The notes beneath the pieces were generated by a model, which had not been told where the DNA came from, made no database searches, and worked only from the letters and a program-made list of their open reading frames with translations. The translations under genes were made by a program, and so were the position numbers. Positions 6,939 through 31,776 of a stretch of 34,787 nucleotides of DNA are shown one piece after another (the first letter of the stretch is position 1; every line of letters starts with the position of its first letter). The stretch comes from Desulfovibrionales bacterium. GTDB taxonomy: Bacteria; Desulfobacterota; QYQD01. The stretch lies in the NCBI GenBank assembly GCA_028715605.1, contig JAQURM010000016.1, positions 1 to 34,787 of the forward strand. The letters are read 5' to 3'.

Positions 6939-7071
6939 ATTAGTTACTTCCTGTTCCTGACGATGTTTGCGCCCCGGCGCATCTGCGATTTGACGGATTA
7001 AGTTACATGATACGGGATAATAATGCTACGAAAAAGCACGCGCCTTTTCTACCTGGAAAGCCGTCCACCTG

Positions 7072-7181
7072 ATATTTAAATAGATTTTTTCTTATTGTGT
7101 TATTCGGCAAATTCTTATACGATTACCCCTAACCGCCGCTCTCGATGAAAAAATTCGAGTCGATATAATCTATAATGTTAG
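7072..7181 (+). repeat. 110-bp repeated element, copy A, ending in an attC/attI-like core
   Basis: Copy A matches 23608-23717 on the opposite strand at about 101 of 110 positions with no gaps (aligned by eye). It starts in an AT-rich run and holds a possible promoter (TTATTG 7092-7097, 18-bp spacer, TATACG 7116-7121). It then has CCTAAC (7128-7133), a small stem (CTCGA / TCGAG around an A-rich loop) and GTTAG (7177-7181). CCTAAC and GTTAG correspond to the RYYYAAC and GTTRRRY core sites of integron recombination sites. Similarity to copy B stops just after GTTAG. The HIT-like gene begins 14 bp later. Confidence 0.75.
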
Positions 7182-7195
7182 CGAGAAACTGACAC

Positions 7196-7840
7196 ATGAA
7201 CAAAGAAGAGGAAAAATATTTACTTGACAGAGTCTGGCATAAAAAGAAGAACGTCAAGAATACATTTTTAGAAGTTTCAAAGTTTCCCCACATTTTTATC
7301 ACGAATGCTCCTCTCACTTTCGGCCACTCGCAACTCGTAGTTCCAGCCCCTCCAGGGACAGATCCTGTCGATGAAAGCAAGATGTTTCGATTAGCGGCAC
7401 CTCTGATCGAGAATGTTCTGAAGGTATTCGAAATCTTTTTTGCCAAGCGGAAACACCACACAAAAGCGCCTTTCCAGAAGTTGGCCGAAGATACATACTC
7501 TTACGGGAAGTATATCAAGACACTGATTCTGCGTACCAGTGCCGATGACGATCCAAAGACTAAAGTAAAATTCCATTTAGTTCCCTATTTCGAATCGAAT
7601 CAAGTAGATTGCCACAAGCGATATCATTCACTTCATAGGGCTTCTCCGAATAAAATAGGTGGCATGATTGGTTGGTTAGGAGAACGAGAAACCCAAGTCG
7701 ACAATTGGTTGGTTGATGGTTTTCCTGGTCCGGTAACGCTGGATCAGATCGGAATGGATATTTGGAAACTGCCGGAACTCGCAAAACGGTTTGAGCGAAT
7801 TTGGCTTAGTCTCGCTAATCGGGTAGCCGGAGGTGTTTAG
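7196..7840 (+). CDS. HIT-superfamily-like protein with altered catalytic motif
   Basis: 214-residue soluble protein. 'FPHIFITNAPLTFGHSQLVVPAPP' (about 30-53) matches the N-terminal HIT-fold strand pair, where 'GH.LV.P' is conserved. About 90 residues later 'KVKFHLVPYFES' aligns with the HIT active-site strand HxHxHxxPR. In this alignment the first two His, including the nucleophile, are Lys, and only the third His remains, so nucleotidyl transfer or hydrolysis is doubtful and a binding role is possible. The gene follows copy A of the 110-bp element by 14 bp, with no good ribosome site between, and its stop overlaps the start of the TtcA-like gene. It is more AT-rich than its neighbours, which fits acquisition. 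Family assignment is moderate; function is not known. Confidence 0.6.
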   Translation: MNKEEEKYLLDRVWHKKKNVKNTFLEVSKFPHIFITNAPLTFGHSQLVVPAPPGTDPVDESKMFRLAAPLIENVLKVFEIFFAKRKHHTKAPFQKLAEDTYSYGKYIKTLILRTSADDDPKTKVKFHLVPYFESNQVDCHKRYHSLHRASPNKIGGMIGWLGERETQVDNWLVDGFPGPVTLDQIGMDIWKLPELAKRFERIWLSLANRVAGGV

Positions 7841-8570
7841 CGGTGTCCCGGTGCCGAATATAGATAAAGAAATAAACCGCTTTGTGGGGAGGGCCTTACA
7901 TAAGTACAATCTTTTGTCCGATGGAGACCATATCCTGGTTGGTCTGTCCGGCGGCAAGGACAGCCTCTCTCTGCTTTATATCCTGAATGAGTGGAAGAAA
8001 AAAACGCCCTTTCCATATAAACTTTCGGCTGCGCATATAGACCTTGGTTTTGACGGCACAGATACGGGGGCTATCGAAGATTATTGCCGGCAGCTAAGTG
8101 TGCCCTGTTATGTGGAAAGGACAAATTTCGGGCCTATGGCCCACAGCGGGGAAAATCGGGAGAATCCCTGCTTTTTGTGTTCCCGATTACGCCGCAAGCG
8201 CCTTTTTGAGATAGCCCATACATTGGGCGCCAACAAGGTCGCCCTTGGGCACAACAAAGACGACCTCATTGAAACACTTTTTCTCAATATACTTTACAGT
8301 GGCGAGATAAGCACCATGGTGCCGCGCCAGCCTTTTTTTAACGGACTGATCGCGGTCATACGCCCCCTGGCCATGGTGGATGCAGAAAAACTGGAACGGT
8401 TTGCCGCCAGGCTATCCATGCCGGAGATTAAAAATCCCTGTCCGAGCGCGGGGTCTTCCCGCAGAAAAGAAATAAGGGAGATGCTGAAGACACTTTACCG
8501 GCAAAACAAGAAAGTGAAAGGCAATATCTTCCATGCCCTGTCCAATGTCCATCCGGATTATCTGCTTTGA
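7833..8570 (+). CDS. ttcA: TtcA-family tRNA 2-thiocytidine biosynthesis protein
   Basis: 245-residue PP-loop ATPase. 'HILVGLSGGKDSLSLLYIL' holds the SGGKDS pyrophosphate loop (about 35-45). 'NPCFLCSRLRRKRLFE' carries the paired cysteines of the TtcA/TtuA group, which ligate an Fe-S cluster, and 'ALGHNKDDLIETLFLN' is the second conserved motif. 'CPSAGSSRRKEIREML' near the C-terminus supplies another conserved Cys. The enzyme adenylates a tRNA base (C32 for TtcA) and replaces its oxygen with sulfur. The GTG at 7833 is uncertain: GGAGG abuts it, and GTG 7851 is also possible. The overlap with the HIT-like gene suggests that the native upstream region was changed. The exact tRNA target cannot be told from the sequence. 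Confidence 0.85.
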   Translation: MFSGVPVPNIDKEINRFVGRALHKYNLLSDGDHILVGLSGGKDSLSLLYILNEWKKKTPFPYKLSAAHIDLGFDGTDTGAIEDYCRQLSVPCYVERTNFGPMAHSGENRENPCFLCSRLRRKRLFEIAHTLGANKVALGHNKDDLIETLFLNILYSGEISTMVPRQPFFNGLIAVIRPLAMVDAEKLERFAARLSMPEIKNPCPSAGSSRRKEIREMLKTLYRQNKKVKGNIFHALSNVHPDYLL

Positions 8571-21085: not shown

Positions 21086-22774
21086 TCAGTATTGAAAACG
21101 GCCTTCAATAAGCTTCTTCCTCGCGACCAAGAACTCATCGTAATTATTCACATTCCAGTTGCCTTTTGGAATGAGATGTTTTTTCAATTCATCTTCGTTG
21201 CCGCCGAGAGATTTTATCCATTCGGCAAACGGAGTCTTTGACTTAATTTTATTTTCGCTGCTGCCTATGTATCTGAGATTGAAAATACTATTGATCTTAT
21301 TTTCTGGGATTTTTGCTTTGCCTAATTCAGACTGCGAAAAAATATGATCTTGTTCAGGTAGATTTCCTTTCATTCGGGGCTGAAAGTTAATCGAGCCGCC
21401 ATAGCAAATTGAGAGGACTAAGTAACTATCCGACGAGGAATATTTGACGTTATCCAGAATATCGGAGTCTAATTTCATACTCTTCTTTGTTTCAGCATTA
21501 ATCTTCTTTTCAAGTTCTTCGGATGGAAACAATTTGGCTTTTTTGCTATCCATTGTTTCCTTGCATTTATATAAGATTGTATCTGCTTGGCCGCCGAAGA
21601 TACCCGACAACAGAGCTTTAGTAAGCCAGAGACGCATTTGGGTTATCTCAGTGTCTGAGATGCAATTAGCCGCATGGCCGAAGCCCTTGCGGCCATTTTT
21701 GAATATCCAATAAATAATAGGGATTATTGCATTATTACTTGGTATGGTTTTATAACTGGTAAGAAATATTTTGTCCTGCAGCAGATCGACACAGAGCGTG
21801 ATAGCTTTTTCAATTGATTTCCAATCTGTTTTCAAATTGTCTATCAGAGTCGATTTGAAGTTCTTAGTTTTATACCTTACTTCCTCGTTGCTTTTTGCAT
21901 ACATGACCAGAGCTGTCTTCAGCACAAAGTCATTAGAGAATTTATATCTGTCATTGGCGTTTATACCCGTTAATAACGCGTCAAACTTTTCTCGCGCATC
22001 TGACCATTTTGACTTGATTGTTGAGAACAGAAGATCTGAATATGATAGCTGTGTACCGCCCGAGTTTGTTCTCACGAAAATATCCAAGACTTTATCGTAA
22101 TTCTGCTCTACTTCTGGATAGTAGTAGATAATCTTCTCTGCCTTCAAATATTGACAAAGGCGGGCGATATTGTTCTTTTGGCTATCTGAAAGGTCTAAGG
22201 CATAACTGTCCTTTATTTTCTTTGAGATTGTAGTCAGCTCACTAAAAATCTGCGAGATGTTCAAATCATAAATATCCTTGACCTTATACCAGAGTTTCTT
22301 CTCGCCGTTATCTTCAATAAAGTCCACTCCTTTGTTGCTATTGAAGAATTTAAACTCAAAAAGAATGCCGTCCTCTTGCTCCTCCTCTCCGCTCAGGACA
22401 TTAAAATAGAGGTCATATGGATTATTCCGGATTATGTAGTTGCCCTTGAGAATAAGATAAAAAGTCGTAAGCCGCTGTTGGCCATCCAAGACAAGAAAAT
22501 ATTCCTTTGCGGAACTTATCTCGGTATTTTCTTTGTTTTGCTCCTTGCTTGTTTTAACAAATTCGAGTTTCTTGATTTTTTCTTTTCTCAGAAATGCCCC
22601 GCTTTGCTTCCAAAATAAAAATGTGCTAATCGGATAATCGCGCATGATTGAATCAAAGAGCGTGTAAACTTGTTCAGGTTTCCAGACAAAATTGCGCTGA
22701 ATGTCGGGAAGAAAATATCTCCTGTTTATTTCTTCAACAACTTCAGGTACTGCCTTTCTTTCATAGTCTTGCAC
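21086..22774 (-). CDS. DUF262/HNH-type protein, GmrSD-like putative defence nuclease
   Basis: 562 residues. The N-terminus is a DUF262 (GmrS/ParB-like) domain: 'YFLPDIQRNFVWKPEQVYTL', 'DYPISTFLFWK' and 'LVLDGQQRLTTFYLILKG' (DGQQRLTT at 97-104), the NTP-handling motif of GmrS and many defence proteins. The C-terminus has 'PEQDHIFSQSEL' (Asp-His about 476-477), then 'INSIFNLRYIGSSENKIKSK' with the N...N...K pattern of the HNH nuclease in DUF1524/GmrD. So it resembles a single-chain type IV restriction enzyme for modified phage DNA, although similar proteins occur outside defence. The start is GTG with AAAGGAG 7 bases upstream. The gene is clearly more AT-rich than its surroundings. No methylase is near. 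Confidence 0.75.
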   Translation of the reverse strand: MQDYERKAVPEVVEEINRRYFLPDIQRNFVWKPEQVYTLFDSIMRDYPISTFLFWKQSGAFLRKEKIKKLEFVKTSKEQNKENTEISSAKEYFLVLDGQQRLTTFYLILKGNYIIRNNPYDLYFNVLSGEEEQEDGILFEFKFFNSNKGVDFIEDNGEKKLWYKVKDIYDLNISQIFSELTTISKKIKDSYALDLSDSQKNNIARLCQYLKAEKIIYYYPEVEQNYDKVLDIFVRTNSGGTQLSYSDLLFSTIKSKWSDAREKFDALLTGINANDRYKFSNDFVLKTALVMYAKSNEEVRYKTKNFKSTLIDNLKTDWKSIEKAITLCVDLLQDKIFLTSYKTIPSNNAIIPIIYWIFKNGRKGFGHAANCISDTEITQMRLWLTKALLSGIFGGQADTILYKCKETMDSKKAKLFPSEELEKKINAETKKSMKLDSDILDNVKYSSSDSYLVLSICYGGSINFQPRMKGNLPEQDHIFSQSELGKAKIPENKINSIFNLRYIGSSENKIKSKTPFAEWIKSLGGNEDELKKHLIPKGNWNVNNYDEFLVARKKLIEGRFQY

Positions 22775-22844: not shown

Positions 22845-22911
22845 GTAGAACGTTCAAAATAACCGGCCTGCGCGCTTTTTCGTGCAGGTCCGGTTCATTG
22901 CCGGGTTAGGC
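22845..22911 (-). other. attC-like integron recombination site
   Basis: On the minus strand: GCCTAAC (22911-22905, a perfect RYYYAAC), a 9-base spacer, AACCGG-A-CCTGC, an AT-rich loop, GCAGGCCGGTT, a 9-base spacer and GTTCTAC (22851-22845). The two inner boxes pair along 11 bp with one unpaired A, the extrahelical base expected of folded attC sites. The order and spacing (R''-L''-loop-L'-R') match an attC of 67 bp. The R' core keeps GTT but not RRRY, as expected if the last six bases come from a non-cassette neighbour. It lies 34 bp after the stop of the 210-residue gene. Confidence 0.65.
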
Positions 22912-22944
22912 CACACGGCCACGGAGCTCCGCATGGCCGATCGA

Positions 22945-23577
22945 CTAAAGAATGCGCCTGCAATCGGATGGAACACGGAGTTGCCCCAGTTCCTCATATT
23001 CCGAATCTGTGACGGGGTAGAGTCGATACACAATCCCAGACGTATTTACCATAGGTTTGTAATAGGTGATGAAGTCAAAAACAGTGTTCGCGGTTCGCGC
23101 GAGGAACTGAATGACGCGAAGTGTGAAGTGGTCGAGTGCCCAAGCGTTATCTGTTACATAGATCAGCAACATCAGGTGCGGGAATTTCTTATAGTGACGA
23201 TACTTTTTATTCTTCTTCGCAATTAGACCTATTACTTGGCGTCCGCGCTCAACGGGGCTGAAGTCGGTTGGCTTTGGGCCGGCAAAGCCACGCTTTCCGA
23301 CCGGCGCATACTCAACCAGTTCTAGTCCCATTGGTCCGAGGTTGGTTTCAACAGTGAAATCGATATCGTTTTCTTCATTCTGAACGGGTTGAGCAAGGAT
23401 CTTGGCCGGAAGGTCGTAGTCGCGCGCATCGGCGGCGAACTGGGTTGCCACAAGGCGCTCGATACCTGCCTTGTCCTGGGGTAACTGCAAGTCGTTCTTA
23501 GCCATTTCTTGTGGCGGTCCGCCTGTCCCTACCGTGACGGAGAAGTGATAAGGGGTTCCTGTCGGCTTCTTATGCAT
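22945..23577 (-). CDS. Hypothetical protein in a putative integron-type cassette
   Basis: 210 residues with no signal peptide or membrane helix. A central strand-rich block 'DIDFTVETNLGPMGLELVEY' has an Asp and Glu spacing reminiscent of PD-(D/E)xK nuclease cores, but no clear Lys follows, so this is only a guess. The C-terminal half is strand/helix rich ('HLMLLIYVTDNAWALDHFTL'). The gene is bracketed by recombination signals: its leader starts at GTTAGGC (23612-23606) at the end of repeat copy B, and an attC-like hairpin begins 34 bp past its stop, which defines a 761-bp unit (22851-23611). One-gene, promoterless units of this size are typical integron cassettes. No homologous family was recognised. 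Confidence 0.6.
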   Translation of the reverse strand: MHKKPTGTPYHFSVTVGTGGPPQEMAKNDLQLPQDKAGIERLVATQFAADARDYDLPAKILAQPVQNEENDIDFTVETNLGPMGLELVEYAPVGKRGFAGPKPTDFSPVERGRQVIGLIAKKNKKYRHYKKFPHLMLLIYVTDNAWALDHFTLRVIQFLARTANTVFDFITYYKPMVNTSGIVYRLYPVTDSEYEELGQLRVPSDCRRIL

Positions 23578-23607
23578 TGCGTGTCCCCGTTGTGTCTACA
23601 ATGTGGC

Positions 23608-23717
23608 CTAACATTATAAATTATATCGACTCGACTTTTTTCGTCGAGACCTGCGGTTAGGAATAATCGTATAAGAATTGGCTGAATAACACAATAAGAA
23701 AAAATCTATTTAAATAT
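23608..23717 (-). repeat. 110-bp repeated element, copy B, ending in an attC/attI-like core
   Basis: The minus-strand copy of 7072-7181, differing at nine positions. Several changes keep pairing: the central stem is CTCGAC/GTCGAG here and CTCGAT/TTCGAG in copy A. CCTAAC (23661-23656) and GTTAGG (23612-23607) are exact complements. The R'-type core is GTTAGGC, a perfect GTTRRRY. The promoter-like hexamers TTATTG and TATACG are conserved, so the element may drive the gene placed after it. Confidence 0.75.
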
Positions 23718-23794
23718 TAGAGAGATAGGGTTGATAAGACAAAGAACGATATTGGCTTCTCAATTGGGGAAAATCTACTTTTTGTTGAAAATAT

Positions 23795-23823
23795 CAATAT
23801 TATGTCGAGTCGACATAATATTG
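23795..23823. repeat. Perfect 29-bp palindrome
   Basis: CAATATTATGTCGA, a single central G, and TCGACATAATATTG: two 14-bp arms that are exact reverse complements. It is an extended site that could be a cruciform or a recognition site for a dimeric protein. It lies about 80 bp upstream of repeat copy B and shares the GTCGAGTCGA core with it. Confidence 0.7.
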
Positions 23824-23878
23824 GCAATTTATTATCCGGAGGCTTGGTGAAGGGCCGGCAGAATAATAGGCCAAAAAA

Positions 23879-30019: not shown

Positions 30020-30057
30020 TATAAATTTTTGTCAAATACAAGTCTTTGTCAAGAAAT
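30020..30057 (-). promoter_or_regulatory. Possible promoter of the minus-strand glycan operon
   Basis: On the minus strand two TTGACA hexamers lie about 20 bp apart, followed by AT-rich sequence with TTTATAG. No single spacing is ideal, so this only marks the likely divergent promoter region between the operon and the repeat proteins. Confidence 0.3.
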
Positions 30058-30063
30058 AGGGTT

Positions 30064-30765
30064 ATGCAGCGGGAAATTCCATGTAAAGAGGAGACCCGGA
30101 TCACGTTTTCTGATACCGGACTCCTGAAAATCTGTGAACTCTCTACGGCTGCTGTCATTCAGGGCGTATGTTTTCCTACGGGCACCGTAATAGGTTTTCA
30201 CGAGGATGGCTACTTATGGCGCTGCCTTCTATCGGAAAATACTCTGGTTCATGGCGTTCCCTGCCAGGGGGGAGCGGAGGTGGAATTCCATAGGAACGGG
30301 CGACTCCACGTGTGCCGGCTGTCAAAAGATTTCCGGTTTGAGGATATTCCCTGCCGGGCCGGGGCGCTGACTATTTTTCATGAAAATGGTGCGTTGTTCC
30401 GGGCCGAACTTTCTGAAAAAATCAGTATCCAGGGCATCCCGCTCAACCTTGGAACTGATGTCTGTTTTTTTGCCGACGGCAGGCTGTCTGCCTGCGATCT
30501 TTTTAGGGATACGGTTATTCAGGATATTCCGTGTCAGGCCCGGAGCCGGGTATGGTTTTATGAAGACGGCAAGTTTTCTGCCGGAACCTTGGCCAAGGAT
30601 TGTATTATCCAGGATATTACCTGCCGGGCCGGCTCACTCATCTGGTTTCATAGTAATGGTAATTTAGCGGGCGGCATTCTATCCCGGGAGGTAAATATCC
30701 AGGGTGTTCCATTATCTGCCGGGACGCCGGTCAAATTTGATGAGAGCGGCATTTTAATTCCCTGA
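30064..30765 (+). CDS. 30-residue-repeat protein, first copy
   Basis: 233 residues made almost wholly of about eight imperfect 30-residue units. A typical unit reads 'IQDIPCRAGxxVWFHENGRL' followed by 'xACxLxxDxx'. Constant positions are Ile/Val-x-Asp/Gly-Ile at the start, a Pro-Cys pair, Ala-Gly, a hydrophobic strand ending in Phe-His/Tyr, and Asn/Asp-Gly-x-Leu. The pattern predicts a beta-solenoid or beta-hairpin stack similar in spirit to MORN and YwqK-type repeats. No signal peptide, membrane helix or catalytic motif is seen. ATG 30064 is preferred over TTG 30046, though ribosome sites are weak. It is followed after 12 bp by a second gene of the same kind. Confidence 0.65.
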   Translation: MQREIPCKEETRITFSDTGLLKICELSTAAVIQGVCFPTGTVIGFHEDGYLWRCLLSENTLVHGVPCQGGAEVEFHRNGRLHVCRLSKDFRFEDIPCRAGALTIFHENGALFRAELSEKISIQGIPLNLGTDVCFFADGRLSACDLFRDTVIQDIPCQARSRVWFYEDGKFSAGTLAKDCIIQDITCRAGSLIWFHSNGNLAGGILSREVNIQGVPLSAGTPVKFDESGILIP

Positions 30766-30777
30766 TTTTCCAGGACG

Positions 30778-31776
30778 ATGAACGATATGTCTGCCCATAT
30801 CCCCTGTAATCCCCGATTACGGGTTAATTTTATAAACGGGAACGGGATCGCCTGTTGTGATCTCTCGCAGGACACGGCAGTGCAGGGCATTTTCTGTCGT
30901 GCCGGCACAAAGATCGAATTTCATAAAAACGGCTGGTTGTGGCGCTGCGAACCTGATGAAGATATCAGCCTTGACGGGGTGCCCATCAGAGGCGGCGCAA
31001 GGGCCGAGCTTCACGAAGAGGGCCGGCTGTGGCGGGGCAGACTGGCTCAGGAGGCAACCGTGCAGGATATTTTGTGCCGCGCCGGCAGTGATATAGAATT
31101 CTGGATGAGCGGACAATTGAAAAGATGCATTCTGGCGCGCGATACGCTGATTCAGGGCATTCCGTGCCGTGCCGGGGCAAATGTAGAGATGAGGGAAGAT
31201 GGCGCGCTGGTTTACGGCGAACTTGCAGGGCCGGCGTTGATACAGGACATTTCCTTTGAGGCGGGGACACGAATATTATTCCATGATAATGGCCGCCTCG
31301 CGGGTTGTTATATGGTACGGGACAAAACTATCCGGGATGTTCCCTGCCGGGCGGATAACTGGGTATGGTTTCATGACACCGGCGGCCTTTCCGCTTGTGT
31401 CCTGGCCGGTGATGCCGCTATCCACAGTGTTTCATGCCGATTGGATACCGGGGTAAATTTACACGACAATGGGAATCTGCTCAGGTGTTATCTATCCGGT
31501 GATCAGGTAATTCAGGGCGTTCCGTCCCGGGCTGCCACGTTTGTACTTTTCCATAAAAACGGGCGACTTTCAGCCTGTGAATTGGCCTTGGATACGGAGT
31601 TCCAGGGGATTCCTTGTAAGAGCCGGGCCTGGGTAGGATTTCACGATAACGGCCGCTTAAAGCGATGTTATCTGGCGAAAGATACGCTTTTTCAGGGGGC
31701 GTTACTCAAAGCCGGGGCGTGGGCCTCGTTTTTCCCCGATGGTACGCTGGAATCCTATAAGTATGACCTCTGTTAG
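30778..31776 (+). CDS. 30-residue-repeat protein, second copy
   Basis: 332 residues with about eleven copies of the same 30-residue unit, e.g. 'IQGIPCRAGANVEMREDGAL' and 'FQGIPCKSRAWVGFHDNGRL' plus 'KRCYLAKDTL'. Repeats drift in sequence (the Cys is replaced by Phe or Ser in some), so the array is old and not a recent slippage product. It ends on 'FFPDGTLESYKYDLC'. AGGA lies 3 bases before ATG 30778; ATG 30787 is an alternative. The 12-bp gap to the first copy indicates one transcript and a tandem duplication. Function is unknown; the divergent glycan operon is the only contextual hint. Confidence 0.65.
   Translation: MNDMSAHIPCNPRLRVNFINGNGIACCDLSQDTAVQGIFCRAGTKIEFHKNGWLWRCEPDEDISLDGVPIRGGARAELHEEGRLWRGRLAQEATVQDILCRAGSDIEFWMSGQLKRCILARDTLIQGIPCRAGANVEMREDGALVYGELAGPALIQDISFEAGTRILFHDNGRLAGCYMVRDKTIRDVPCRADNWVWFHDTGGLSACVLAGDAAIHSVSCRLDTGVNLHDNGNLLRCYLSGDQVIQGVPSRAATFVLFHKNGRLSACELALDTEFQGIPCKSRAWVGFHDNGRLKRCYLAKDTLFQGALLKAGAWASFFPDGTLESYKYDLC

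Follow-up and report, generated by a model that had tools for sequence, protein, structure and literature searches.

The 110-bp repeat analysed here, which we call the socket, is probably an attI-like insertion site for integron cassettes with a promoter in front, which stems from an ancestral integron and has about ten copies scattered through each genome. Sequence comparison demonstrated dispersed conserved sites, boundaries at G^TT, turnover of the cassettes and sharing of cassettes. Insertion by an integrase, promoter activity and attI ancestry are inferred; an acting integrase and the spread of the sockets were not shown.

The window, that is the whole stretch of 34,787 nt that was analysed, contains two sockets in inverted orientation. 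Pairwise alignment of positions 7072-7181 (+) with 23608-23717 (-) showed 101 identical positions of 110 without any gap, and the similarity between the two copies ends at GTTAG. A repeat finder returned arms of 113 nt (7069-7181 and 23608-23720) with 91% identity. The window holds two occurrences of the 26-nt core, which 100 dinucleotide shuffles never produced, and the G+C content of the 110-bp element is 31% vs 48% for the window. Copy 2 extends further in the 5' direction, to about position 23850. The genes after the two copies differ (HIT-like, 7196-7840, vs hypothetical, 22945-23577), and no integrase gene was found in the 34,787 nt. Apart from the sockets, two adjacent genes built from imperfect repeats, each about 30 residues long (90-nt period), are located at 30046-31776 (+). 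The parts of the two sockets are:

7069-7181, + strand: socket copy 1, 113 nt resembling copy 2, 5' part shortened
7095-7123, + strand: promoter-like pair TTGTGT-17 nt-TACGAT in socket 1; TTGT..T and TA..AT invariant in 27 sockets
7154-7179, + strand: recombination core of socket 1, conserved and closing with G^TT (G at 7177); orthologues diverge from here
23608-23850, - strand: complete socket copy 2 of about 240 bp; full-length relatives at L007, L010, L035, L047 and L051
23666-23694, - strand: promoter-like pair TTGTGT-17 nt-TACGAT in socket 2 (alignment A1)
23610-23635, - strand: conserved core of socket 2, ending in G^TT with the G at 23612
23800-23818, no strand assigned: palindrome TTATGTCGAGTCGACATAA of full-length sockets, confined to sockets in the 461 kb of sequence examined
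23838-23849, + strand: ribosome-binding-like GGAGG plus GTG, divergent from socket copy 2; position matches the intI remnant at L083

A query of 141 bp around copy 1 matched 13 places in the genome of the window (2.56 Mb, 25 contigs), and a query of 243 bp from copy 2 gave 8 to 16 matches per genome in all five genomes examined from the GTDB class, which comprises a single genus. With a sequence-only profile (R1), built from alignment A1 of 27 socket copies, 17, 8, 7, 11 and 16 matches were obtained in the five genomes, fragments counted; the match to socket copy 1 covers 7068-7179 with 101.6 bits. Named records containing the same element are mostly Thermodesulfobacteriota MAGs. In a search of 395 genomes of the phylum only three outside the genus were matched at E <= 0.001, and two of these (G312 and G354) are probably genuine. 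The cassette gene in G312 (L179) shows 78% DNA identity to that at L084. G354 contains three socket loci, and at one of them (L196) the gene is followed by an R'' (GCGCCTAAC) that matches the cassette start (GCTAGGCGC) except for one base. No sockets were detected in plasmids, phages or IMG/VR. A contig of 3.1 kb filed as Smithella sp. (JASEHT010000263.1) carries two sockets 2.7 kb apart, i.e. tandem sockets with cargo in between; this contig is probably misbinned and derived from the clade studied here. The end of a transposase-like gene was observed just upstream of two sockets (L071 and L077).

The comparison of socket loci demonstrated that integron cassettes, consisting of a gene and an attC site, begin exactly at the G^TT which ends the sockets. 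By the rule that the R'' of an attC is complementary to the start of its cassette (GTTNNNN), 35 sites were tested; in 17 of them the seven bases behind the junction recur in exact reverse-complement form within 1.5 kb downstream, usually in an attC. Chance alone gives 3.4 ± 1.7 such sites with a maximum of 9 (2000 shuffles dealing the heptamers among the loci); a few of the 17 matches are expected to be accidental, and about half of the sites have no attC by this strict test. All six attC sites that were folded show the canonical R''L''-L'R' structure with extrahelical (bulged) bases, and the first ORF points away from the socket in 32 of 35 cases. Several attC sites are broken by group II introns, which in three cassettes are inserted in R''. 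The 3' ends of such introns were identified at L083, L107 and L071, and L107 carries intron domains matching the Rfam families RF01998 and RF02001; insertion point and orientation correspond to the published target of group IIC-attC introns (PMC7923331). A REP-like palindrome (GTAGGGTGGGCTTTGCCCACC) was seen inside or beside several attC sites (L078, L085, L111). Mrr-type and GmrSD-type proteins and toxin-antitoxin genes are encoded by socket cassettes elsewhere. In the window the following cassette features were identified:

7177-7817, + strand: cassette 1, from GTTAGCG through the HIT-like gene to CGCTA (start of R'')
7196-7840, + strand: HIT-like protein gene, 214 aa; last codons from R'' and the intron relic
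7818-7841, + strand: relic of a group II intron 3' end in reverse orientation inside the attC; its 24 nt equal the intron ends in L083, L107 and L071 save one base
22852-23612, - strand: 761-bp cassette 2, starting with GTTAGGC and including its whole attC
22945-23577, - strand: hypothetical gene in cassette 2, ORF of 210 aa
22852-22911, - strand: 60-bp attC of cassette 2, folding canonically with one base bulged out
21086-22774, - strand: DUF262-type gene (PADLOC HEC-05, E = 1.9e-132), next after cassette 2

Cassette 1 starts with GTTAGCG, has CGCTA(A) at the end of the gene and is broken exactly at the known insertion point of group IIC-attC introns; the same break of R'' by an intron end is found at L107 and L083. 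A homologue of the HIT-like gene (32% identity) is the cassette gene of socket L107 in another species. The R'' of cassette 2 (GCCTAAC) and its start (GTTAGGC) are exactly reverse-complementary, and the DNA fold of its attC stretch has a z of -3.4. No Pfam or PADLOC family was found for its 210-aa protein. The following DUF262-type gene matches HEC-05, a candidate defence family; no clear attC was seen after it, and its status as a second cassette remains undecided.

Analysis of orthologous loci revealed that sockets at the same locus are common to several species while the cassettes differ, and that one cassette is present in two sockets. At the rnhA-ttcA locus the genome of the window and G004 have both flanks in common at 95-96% identity, and the DNA between the socket and the right flank is unrelated (0.66 kb vs 2.5 kb in G004). 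Comparing L068 with L109, the right-hand homology resumes exactly at the GTT closing the attC. At a third locus four species have flank and socket in common up to GTT and diverge after it. A ParDE-like toxin-antitoxin cassette of 542 nt is located in L083 and, in another species, in the first socket of L102; identity is 96.3% from the G of GTT onwards, 62% in the socket and 38% upstream. Mobility is shown for the cassettes and not for the sockets. Some orthologous loci hold different socket subtypes, for which simple vertical inheritance is not a sufficient explanation. Among the relatives no clean empty site was found; in those that lack the socket, tens to hundreds of bases are different, and therefore no insertion boundary can be read. 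In a further pair of orthologous loci (L078 and L112) the socket of G000 has shrunk to palindrome and core. Its shortened form suggests a deletion from one GTCGAGTCGA repeat to the other, and a cassette with attC is still present.

Most claims of a preliminary description of the window, made without database searches, were confirmed by these data: two inverted copies identical at about 101 of 110 positions, with similarity stopping at the core (at GTT); a different gene after each copy, now identified as cassette genes; no integrase gene in the window; and a constant socket whose genes, joined at an integron-type G^TT core, are exchangeable. The genome-wide search it proposed found copies ending at GTT with different genes after them, and an intI gene, which it suggested looking for outside the window, was found in the same genome. 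The same sequence continuing beyond GTTAG, or a lack of variable flanking genes, would have refuted it; neither was observed. Its term 'mobile' platform holds for the cassettes only.

The 3' end of the socket is nearly constant (GAYGAAAAAAGTCGAGTCGATATAATNTATAATGTT) with unrelated sequence beyond. On the 5' side the copies are ragged; the longest of them, of about 240 bp, start near CACCARGCCTCCGGATAATAAATT and contain the palindrome TTATGTCGAGTCGACATAA; some sockets are truncated at one end or the other. TTGT..T and TA..AT with a spacing of 17 bp are invariant in the 27 sockets of alignment A1, and at least two main subtypes can be distinguished (TTGTGT/TACGAT and TTGTAC/TATCAT). Scans with consensus promoters miss these hexamers, which fit the consensus poorly. 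A promoter directed at the gene is possible, resting only on conserved hexamers and spacing; transcription was not shown. Outside the sockets the palindrome was not found in 461 kb of sequence, and a role as general operator of other genes was rejected on this ground. In one locus of G354 (L194) palindrome and core are altered together (GCCGAGTCGG / GCCGAGTCG), as a single protein binding to the two would predict; this is only suggestive.

An R''-like CTAAC is present at the expected place in only 3 of 27 aligned sockets, and the socket hairpin shows no covariation, as no base pair was changed on both sides. For both reasons the socket was rejected as an attC site, and the attC-like ending (CCTAAC plus hairpin) of the preliminary description failed; the promoter-like hexamers it had pointed out are indeed conserved, with promoter activity not shown. 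One criterion of an attI site, cassettes joining at G^TT without attC-type R'' or stem, is fulfilled by the socket. It could still be argued that the socket is the attC-type tail of a promoter-bearing gene cassette without ORF. Promoter cassettes are known (PMC12444791) and the socket ends in a GTT core; against this stand the same missing R'' and covarying stem and the absence of a GTT at the 5' boundary, which make this explanation very improbable.

The genome of the window contains one complete intI on contig C4 (TIGR02249, 376.8 bits) with its own cassette array. This integron (L032, position 10466 to the end) encodes an IntI of 444 aa with a long N-terminal extension and adjoins hydrogenase-protease-like genes; its first cassette reads GTTGTGC...GCACAAC and the array runs off the contig. 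The attI of this only intI is unlike the socket: it gave no match to the R1 model, and with the main-core profile it ranked 14 to 54 among about 594 GTT positions, a shorter profile being worse. Homology of the socket to this attI was therefore rejected. No cassettes common to the main array and the sockets were apparent. In the other four MAGs no intI was found, only XerC/XerD-like and phage-type recombinases; gaps in the MAGs could hide an intI. At the full-length socket L083 the C-terminus of an integron integrase adjoins on the opposite strand (divergent), with 61.5% identity to the IntI of G000 over 39 residues (tblastn, E = 3e-8), and abuts the start-codon-like end of the socket. L083 has the order intI - attI - cassettes, in which intI is for the most part deleted, and from this one clear remnant we infer that the sockets are copies of an intI-attI intergenic region. 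Start-like remnants are also present at L069 and L086, and GGAGG plus GTG at 23838-23849 of the window is, judging from sequence and position, probably the start of a lost intI. No intI was found beside any other socket. Among 30 intI loci of the phylum the only socket match at E < 0.01, at L127, was rejected as an intI-linked socket because it lies inside an unrelated coding gene.

These remnants are also compatible with sockets being relics only: several independent complete integrons at these loci would each have lost the integrase and left attI and frozen cassettes as CALIN-like debris without present function. The remnants at L083, L069 and L086, the lack of intI in four of five genomes, the intron-broken attC sites and the sockets truncated at either end speak for this view. 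Against it, orthologous sockets of close relatives carry different cassettes, so that turnover went on after the sockets were fixed; moreover, one cassette occurs in two species with 96% identity between its copies, and core and promoter positions are invariant in 27 copies. On balance we lean slightly against the relic explanation. Less convincing is a MITE-like small non-autonomous transposon whose right end by chance serves integrons well as a secondary target (attG-like). This would fit the dispersal of the repeats, the palindrome close to the 5' end and the loci of relatives without the element, but neither target-site duplications nor terminal inverted repeats were found at the compared loci (none of which offers a clean empty site), the 5' ends are ragged with the 3' end constant at G^TT, and an intI remnant adjoins L083. 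We consider this origin unlikely.

The attI-like reading was also compared with known systems. Like the class 1 attI1/Pc-type site the socket is non-palindromic, ends in G^TT and has promoter-like hexamers in front; the cassettes lie in sense direction with the first gene near the promoter, and one socket has a divergent intI remnant. Unlike this type, each genome has about ten dispersed sockets rather than a single site next to intI, intI is unlinked or missing, and the socket sequence differs from the attI of the genome's own intI. The window loci do not fulfil the definition of a complete integron (intI, attI and attC array together). With CALINs (attC clusters lacking integrase; PMC9024848) the sockets have in common that attC-bearing cassettes lie without an intI in the vicinity. 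The CALIN threshold of two or more attC without intI is reached at some loci, such as L110 and L111 with two to three, and one attC was seen at window copy 2. In contrast to CALINs each socket array starts from one shared, conserved site that contains promoter-like hexamers and usually comprises one to three cassettes, with many arrays per genome. The attG sites (Loot et al. 2024, cited in PMC12901181 and PMC12444791) likewise receive cassettes at chromosomal positions outside the integron. According to the descriptions, their insertions are scattered over many diverse loci, whereas sockets are a conserved element of 110-240 bp that is used repeatedly and retained at orthologous positions. Group IIC-attC introns (PMC7923331) end in the R'' of cassettes in reverse orientation as here; they are passengers that confirm attC sites and not parts of the socket.

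As a mechanism we propose that the sockets descend from an intI-attI intergenic region that was multiplied in the genome with loss of the intI copies. A cassette circle would recombine via its attC with the socket core by the integron integrase, and the TTGT..-17-TA..AT promoter would transcribe the inserted gene. The result would be chromosome-wide arrays of one to few cassettes, served by an integrase in trans, if still active. Neither recombination nor transcription data are available for these steps. Several observations weigh against the proposal: the unlike attI of the genome's only intI, the lack of intI in the other four MAGs, the single clear intI remnant, the sites without attC by the strict test, the poor fit of the hexamers to the promoter consensus and the differing subtypes at some orthologous loci. 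A bolder reading, which in our view may equally well prove right or wrong, is that of a 'distributed integron', in which many dispersed attI/promoter sockets hold many cassettes in the expressed first position at once, cassettes are exchanged by a trans-acting integrase, and further families of the phylum have sockets of this type too.

In descriptions of integrons a single attI lies beside the integrase, and owing to this arrangement only the first cassettes are well expressed; no multiple or orphan attI was found in the literature searched. If our interpretation is true, about ten promoter-bearing attI copies would lift this limit on first-cassette expression, and they would explain single scattered chromosomal cassettes which searches for cassette arrays overlook. 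Sockets with known flanks are natural replicates for measuring cassette turnover between species.
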